Shown here: positions 36,075-37,317 of the stretch, in pieces
How positions within the stretch are numbered: position 1 is the first letter of the stretch
Layout of the letters: each line of letters begins with the position of its first letter
Assembly: GCA_030591685.1 (NCBI GenBank)
Contig: JAUVAX010000024.1
Coordinates: forward strand, 1 to 37,317
DNA: 37,317 bases
From: Pseudobdellovibrionaceae bacterium
GTDB lineage: Bacteria > Bdellovibrionota > Bdellovibrionia > Bdellovibrionales > UBA1609
Direction: 5' to 3'
Made by a program: the position numbers and the translations under genes
The notes under the pieces: generated by a model
What the model was told of the DNA's origin: nothing
Database searches by the model: none
The model's input: only the letters and a program-made list of their open reading frames with translations

Positions 36075-36470
36075 CTATTCATGTGTCCCTAAAAAATCGC
36101 AAAGCTGCTTCATTATGACCTCTTCTCTTACATGAAGCTGCTTATCTGAAACAATAATTTGCTGGGCAATTTGAATCAAAAAATCAGTAATATTTTTTTT
36201 GCCCTTAAATCTTTGTAAATGCTCCTTGGTGGTATCTATAGCGCTTTGGTAGTCGTGAAGGTATATATCTTTTGCATCTAACATGTCCATGTCAAACTCT
36301 TGAGTGCTTAAGTGTTTGTAAAGCTCAGAGCCTTCTATTATTTGAGAGATCTTAGCTTGCTCTTCATCACTTATGCTGCCATCAGCAGTGCTGATTAAAT
36401 AAAATATCAAAGCAATACACTTAGATAGTGCACCTTTGTTCTCTGCATATAAGTCCCAGTTGATTTCCAT
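36075..36470 (-). CDS. TerB-like helical protein
   Basis: A 131-residue all-helical, acidic, soluble protein. The pattern IALIFYLISTADGSISDEEQAKI resembles the TerB fold, in which ADGxIxxxE acids may bind a metal. TerB-like domains occur in tellurite-resistance and membrane-associated stress proteins, but also in many unrelated single-domain proteins, so no resistance role is claimed. GGAG (complement of 36476-36479) lies 5 nt before the ATG. It converges with the LpxH-like gene, with 12 nt between. Confidence 0.65.
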   Translation of the reverse strand: MEINWDLYAENKGALSKCIALIFYLISTADGSISDEEQAKISQIIEGSELYKHLSTQEFDMDMLDAKDIYLHDYQSAIDTTKEHLQRFKGKKNITDFLIQIAQQIIVSDKQLHVREEVIMKQLCDFLGTHE

Positions 36471-36779: not shown

Positions 36780-36986
36780 ATGACCTATTTTAAATTCGTG
36801 TTATTAATAAGTACTGTTTACTCAATGAGTTTATTTGCAGAGCCAGAGGCTCAATTAACTGAAATTACGATCACACCTATAAAATCCTGGATAAAAAAGG
36901 CCGTGGGATTTAGCGCCCCACGGCCTTTTGTTGAATCAGAACTAAAAAAACCGTGGGATCCTCTGGAAGGGCCCCACGGTTTATGA
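36780..36986 (+). CDS. Small secreted-peptide ORF, doubtful
   Basis: The ORF encodes 68 residues from ATG 36780, with a CGAGGA site about 9 nt upstream. Residues 1-20 look like a real signal peptide (MTYFKFVLLISTVYSMSLFA before EPEA), leaving a mature peptide of about 48 residues. Its second half is encoded by two GC-rich hairpins that act as terminators on the other strand, so that part is shaped by RNA structure. It could be a true small periplasmic protein overlapping an antisense RNA, or chance coding. No family recognised. Confidence 0.35.
   Translation: MTYFKFVLLISTVYSMSLFAEPEAQLTEITITPIKSWIKKAVGFSAPRPFVESELKKPWDPLEGPHGL
36895..36929 (-). terminator. Second tandem terminator (minus; also usable on plus)
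   Basis: AAAAGGCCGTGGG (36895-36907) pairs perfectly with CCCACGGCCTTTT (36917-36929), a 13-bp stem with a 9-nt loop. Read on the minus strand, it ends in a run of six T; on the plus strand in four T. It backs up the terminator at 36944-36982. Confidence 0.8.
36944..36982 (-). terminator. First terminator of the candidate small RNA
   Basis: AAACCGTGGG (36948-36957) pairs with CCCACGGTTT (36973-36982), a 10-bp stem with a 15-nt loop. On the minus strand it is followed by seven T (36950 down to 36944). Its core CCGTGGG/CCCACGG is the same as in the neighbouring terminator, so the pair looks duplicated. Confidence 0.82.
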
Positions 36987-37097
36987 ACTTGCTATCTTAT
37001 GTCAGCATTACTGTAGTGGGTGCACCTCTCTCCTGGAGACAGGCCACCACCAGCCTTTAAAAAATTGAGAAGCGTTCTTTTCTGTCCATGAATACAT
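36945..37097 (-). ncRNA. Candidate small RNA, about 153 nt, family unknown
   Basis: A transcription unit with no convincing ORF on its strand. It has a near-perfect sigma70 promoter at 37104-37132, an expected start near 37097, and a strong terminator ending near 36945, backed by a second one. Its middle folds. Positions 37025-37043 are a 19-nt near-palindrome (CCTCTCTCC-T-GGAGACAGG) with one mismatch, flanked by GTGGG and CCACCAC, which extend the stem. Three GGA triplets are present, two in predicted loops. I compared it by memory with 4.5S, 6S, tmRNA, RNase P and cyclic-di-GMP riboswitch signatures and saw none. The start is inferred from promoter spacing. Confidence 0.6.
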
Positions 37098-37103
37098 ATT
37101 TTA

Positions 37104-37132
37104 TTTATAGCCGGGTATTAAAAAATTGTCAA
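37104..37132 (-). promoter_or_regulatory. Strong sigma70-type promoter of the small RNA
   Basis: On the minus strand, TTGACA (complement of 37127-37132) is a perfect -35. TATAAA (complement of 37104-37109) is a 5 of 6 match to the -10. The spacer is exactly 17 nt. This is the best promoter I found in the whole window. Confidence 0.75.
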
Positions 37133-37317
37133 TGAAAAATATTCGACCTATGTAGTTAGTGTCTGAACGAAAACCCAATAAAAGATATGAATACAAGGGC
37201 TTAGTGCCGAATTACGGAAGTGAAGATTTTAAGTTTTCGGCCACGAACTAGCTAATCCCGAATAAAGGCCTTGCACTGCTGAGTAAAATTGAATCAGAAC
37301 CCAAAAAAAACTTCACA
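37133..37317. other. Right edge, no gene supported
   Basis: No coding frame of useful length and no RNA gene is seen. The stretch is upstream of the small-RNA promoter on the minus strand and may hold activator sites or the flank of a gene beyond the window. Confidence 0.4.

Follow-up and report, generated by a model that had tools for sequence, protein, structure and literature searches.

Does the short minus-strand segment near the end of this contig, with its promoter and two terminators, constitute a gene of its own, and, if so, of which kind? The window, that is, the whole stretch of 37,317 nt that was analysed, is contig C94 of an assembly of 98 contigs and 2.66 Mb rated 100% complete, and it stops with the contig at position 37317. 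Its right part holds a cell-wall and division cluster (MurG-type glycosyltransferase, Mur ligase, MurB, Ddl, FtsQ, FtsA and FtsZ), after which comes an LpxH-like phosphoesterase. The signals described below point to a lineage-specific, free-standing small RNA (sRNA) gene on the minus strand, with predicted RNAs of 154 or 205 nt, a reading to which we assign a probability a little short of even; an sRNA gene of this sort, an ordinary kind of thing, is the most likely explanation of the locus.

The promoter, described in the original prediction as TTGACA, a 17-nt spacer and TATAAA on the minus strand, is located exactly as claimed (37132-37104), with the -35 hexamer at 37132-37127 and the -10 hexamer at 37109-37104; the usual distance of 6-7 nt from the latter places the predicted +1 close to 37097. 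No other 11/12 sigma70-type site occurs on either strand of the 37-kb window, and a promoter scan in which position 6 of the -10 hexamer has to be T misses this one. Dinucleotide shuffles hold a mean of 0.9 such sites per window, and the chance expectation of one within 250 nt ahead of a given terminator on a given strand is about 0.003. The two terminators, T1 (36944-36981, minus strand, 7-T tail) and T2 (36893-36929, minus strand, 6-T tail), share the core CCGTGGG/CCCACGG, which bears out the earlier claim about their tails and common core; with -20.3 and -20.5 kcal/mol, respectively, they surpass in stability every other terminator-like hairpin found there, the next-ranked one, after ftsZ, reaching -12.5 kcal/mol. 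The only 11/12 promoter is thus followed, in the correct order and within 240 nt, by the two strongest terminators of the window. The direction of the unit is taken to be minus because the T tails are long on that strand (T7 and T6) and short on the plus strand (T3 and T4).

The pattern CCGTGGG N3-30 CCCACGG occurs at two places in the 2.66-Mb assembly, T1 and T2, and the reversed-pattern control gave zero matches in the same assembly; since the palindrome is restricted to one site of the genome, it is not a dispersed repeat, and a REP/BIME element was ruled out. The two copies differ in two outer pairs, GG/CC in T2 and AA/TT in T1, and these differences are found on both sides, so that pairing has been kept while the copies diverged.

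A search of the whole window against Rfam 15 returned no family at gathering score, in agreement with the original prediction that the RNA matches no common family, and this null result, together with the promoter and the terminator pair, supports the description of a compact, probably strongly promoted and doubly terminated unit, as far as sequence signals can indicate. Neither BLASTN in 59 genomes nor a covariance model, R1, run against 144 genomes of the class, found relatives of the RNA; phage and plasmid collections gave nothing meaningful, and no tRNA or tmRNA was found. A search with FtsA gave one relative, the MAG UBA1609 (L133), labelled Bdellovibrionaceae, which is 72% identical in this protein and the closest named genome that was found; gene order is shared with it up to ftsZ and breaks thereafter, which makes the RNA region lineage-specific. 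A terB-like gene (36075-36470; PF05099, E 8e-7), the next one on the minus strand past the terminators, had no close relative that could serve as a synteny anchor. A CsrA-binding sRNA of the CsrB/RsmY type was also considered: the GGA triplets once suggested to lie in loops number three in the T1-ended RNA and are mostly paired in the predicted fold, so that the speculation about CsrA is unsupported.

From the promoter and terminator positions, the predicted RNA on the minus strand extends over 36944-37097 (154 nt) when it ends at T1 and over about 36893-37097 (205 nt) when it ends at T2. It includes hairpin H1 (37010-37054, minus strand), with a folding energy of -20.4 kcal/mol (z -1.5), whose tip is the 19-nt near-palindrome CCTGTCTCCAGGAGAGAGG at 37043-37025. 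The palindrome of the original prediction is thus present, with one mismatch, but it lies in the interval from the promoter to the terminators and not between T1 and T2, where it had been placed. The whole RNA folds with a z of -5.25 and the body alone (37097-36983) with a z of -0.6; the excess folding energy of the RNA is due to the terminators and not to the body. The 5' 40 nt folded alone reach -0.7 kcal/mol, no better than shuffles. For the preferred sRNA gene we infer transcription, the RNA ends and the mode of action as follows: RNA polymerase would start at about 37097 from the near-consensus sigma70-type promoter and stop at T1, with T2 as a fail-safe, and the mature RNA would consist of an AU-rich, weakly structured 5' part of about 40 nt, H1, a small hairpin and a U-tailed terminator, most likely acting in trans by base-pairing through its open 5' part.

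The same strand is gene-free for about 420 nt downstream of T2, up to the terB-like gene, which counts in favour of the sRNA gene; counting against it are a body no more structured than shuffles, the missing conservation in the searches above, the prediction that, in the complete RNA, 37089-37083 within the 5' part pairs with the segment preceding T1, and a tryptophan-rich reading frame at the +1 that it leaves unexplained. For Bdellovibrio, lineage-restricted intergenic sRNAs with lengths of 98-655 nt have been documented (PMC3627812), and the candidate resembles the attack-phase sRNAs of Bdellovibrio bacteriovorus in being intergenic, lineage-restricted, within this size range and devoid of homologues. 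FliA promoters were reported, however, for three of eight members of that set (PMC3627812), whereas the promoter here is sigma70-like and a search for a FliA-type promoter at the predicted RNA gave no good match; moreover, the organism is only distantly related to B. bacteriovorus. If the locus is only an sRNA gene, it would add one more lineage-specific RNA in a group for which very little is known about regulation by RNA.

Two other explanations, both less likely than either the sRNA gene or the leader-type device discussed below, take the surroundings of the unit as their starting point. The RNA might silence in cis a 68-aa ORF on the plus strand (36780-36986), a doubtful gene antisense to its 3' half, by overlap of the 3' ends, the arrangement seen in convergent type I toxin-antitoxin pairs. 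The predicted overlap takes in 31 codons at the end of this ORF, GAGG stands 9 nt before its ATG, its start is hydrophobic, and no more than 2 of 54 non-coding runs match its codon score, a borderline value; nevertheless, it yielded no family and no relatives, its N-terminus looks less like a toxin than like a secretion signal that is cleaved off, and the tandem hairpins T1 and T2 break its reading frame, since their spacing of 50-56 nt shifts the plus-strand frame, which indicates that the hairpin has been kept and not a protein. We regard this antisense role as improbable indeed. It is also rather improbable that there is no separate RNA gene and that T1 and T2 end a minus-strand operon located beyond the contig end, the promoter being fortuitous or weak. 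Such an operon would accord with the position of the window edge, and the T1 tail and spacer recur at 37289-37308 (TTGAATCAGAAC..AAAAAA; strand unassigned), a direct repeat of 36931-36950 that is 18/20 identical, 358 nt apart and reached by one of 200 shuffles. This copy hints, at the level of sequence, at a further terminator just past 37317 and so at further units there, and it may also mark a tandem copy of the unit itself; against the operon stand the low chance expectation of an 11/12 promoter so close before the terminators and the at least 180 nt devoid of a convincing gene between the contig end and the promoter.

The main rival to the sRNA gene, unlikely as it appears to us, is an orphan trpL-like attenuator, a leaderless mini-mRNA of the rnTrpL kind. 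The statement of the original prediction that the strand holds no convincing ORF is doubtful, as it overlooked a leaderless frame of 29 codons, MYSWTEKNASQFFKGWWWPVSRREVHPLQ (37008-37097, minus strand; TAA at 37010-37008), whose ATG stands at the predicted +1, whose codons 16-18 (37052-37044) are three consecutive tryptophan codons (WWW) situated in the 5' arm of H1, and whose stop lies about 26 nt before the T1 stem. A WWW run is present in one of 475 small ORFs of the window, and an ATG ORF with such a run arises in 5e-5 of body shuffles; however, some triple run among W, H, F, L, T, I and V, mostly of Leu, occurs in about 6% of the small ORFs here, so that the discovery is partly post hoc, and the G-rich stem favours TGG codons. 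The codon score of the frame is low and relatives of the peptide were missing from the 141 genomes of the order; the weak matches that were inspected closely, including the top small-ORF ones in L111 and L117, are antisense to longer ORFs. A Shine-Dalgarno sequence is missing ahead of the frame, which is not decisive against translation because rnTrpL of Sinorhizobium meliloti likewise carries the ATG of its leader ORF at its very 5' end (PMC7298713). In such an attenuator, ribosomes would initiate at the 5'-terminal AUG and, when Trp-tRNA is short, come to a halt at WWW, where they occupy the 5' arm of H1; its 3' arm would then pair with the 5' arm of T1, T1 would fail, and its freed 3' arm would pair with the 5' arm of T2, so that T2 could fail as well and terB be transcribed. 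In the presence of tryptophan, the short RNA and the peptide, which may act in trans, would be released. The predicted duplex between the 3' side of H1 and the 5' arm of T1 reaches -17.7 kcal/mol, compared with -11.1 +/- 2.6 kcal/mol in shuffles, 15 of 1000 of which are as strong, so that this alternative pairing beats 98.5% of them. The relay pairing of T1 with T2, predicted at -19.5 kcal/mol, is available because the cores of the two terminators are identical, and a relay that defeats both is conceivable, as we infer from these models. Once the whole RNA has been made, however, the state with both terminators is favoured over the ON state by 14 kcal/mol, and the relay could therefore work only kinetically.

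The model of the enterobacterial Trp_leader (RF00513) can be aligned here from end to end, its Trp codons matching those of the frame in position, and the predicted layout shares with it the order of a hairpin with Trp codons in its 5' arm, a rival pairing and a terminator; in contrast, the ORF stop here falls after and not before the pairing segment, and neither a Shine-Dalgarno sequence nor trpE is present. The match was not accepted as a sign of membership, as its score of 21.2 bits, at noise level and below the cut-off of 41, is equalled or exceeded at many other places, where the scores reach 25 bits in this genome and 31 bits in relatives; several of these other matches come from the two strands of a single site, which is what palindromic hairpins should produce. 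The rnTrpL of S. meliloti, the attenuator of trpE(G), which encodes the 14-residue peptide peTrpL (PMC7298713), is similar in being a short terminated RNA with a 5' end that coincides with the ATG of a Trp-rich ORF and with no Shine-Dalgarno sequence (PMC7298713), the +1 being a predicted one in the present case; it differs from the locus studied here, with its 29 codons, its two terminators and no trp genes. No amino-acid gene lies downstream, only the terB-like gene, and both trpA and trpC are absent from this genome, trpC also being absent in 46 of the 47 genomes of the family, which argues against a tryptophan attenuator; in a tryptophan auxotroph, the device would sense imported tryptophan. 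The full scheme, in which a member of the Bdellovibrio lineage auxotrophic for tryptophan has an orphan, leaderless trpL-like attenuator that combines stalling at WWW, a two-terminator relay and a choice between sRNA and peptide release and terB read-through, with no link to tryptophan biosynthesis, is quite unlikely in our estimation. If the Trp-rich frame is translated, an attenuator-type sensor would occur in a family seemingly unable to make tryptophan, and such devices could exist apart from biosynthetic operons.

The single trpC (IGPS) match among the 47 family genomes (G015:C44:6450-7199, L134) comes either from contamination or from a gene that has, in a rare case, been retained or acquired. 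The only chorismate-binding protein found in the present genome (L031, G000:C77), which also weighs against the attenuator, adjoins MenD and is taken as MenF; this MenF-MenD pair has a DAHP-synthase-like gene and a MenG/UbiE-like gene as neighbours.
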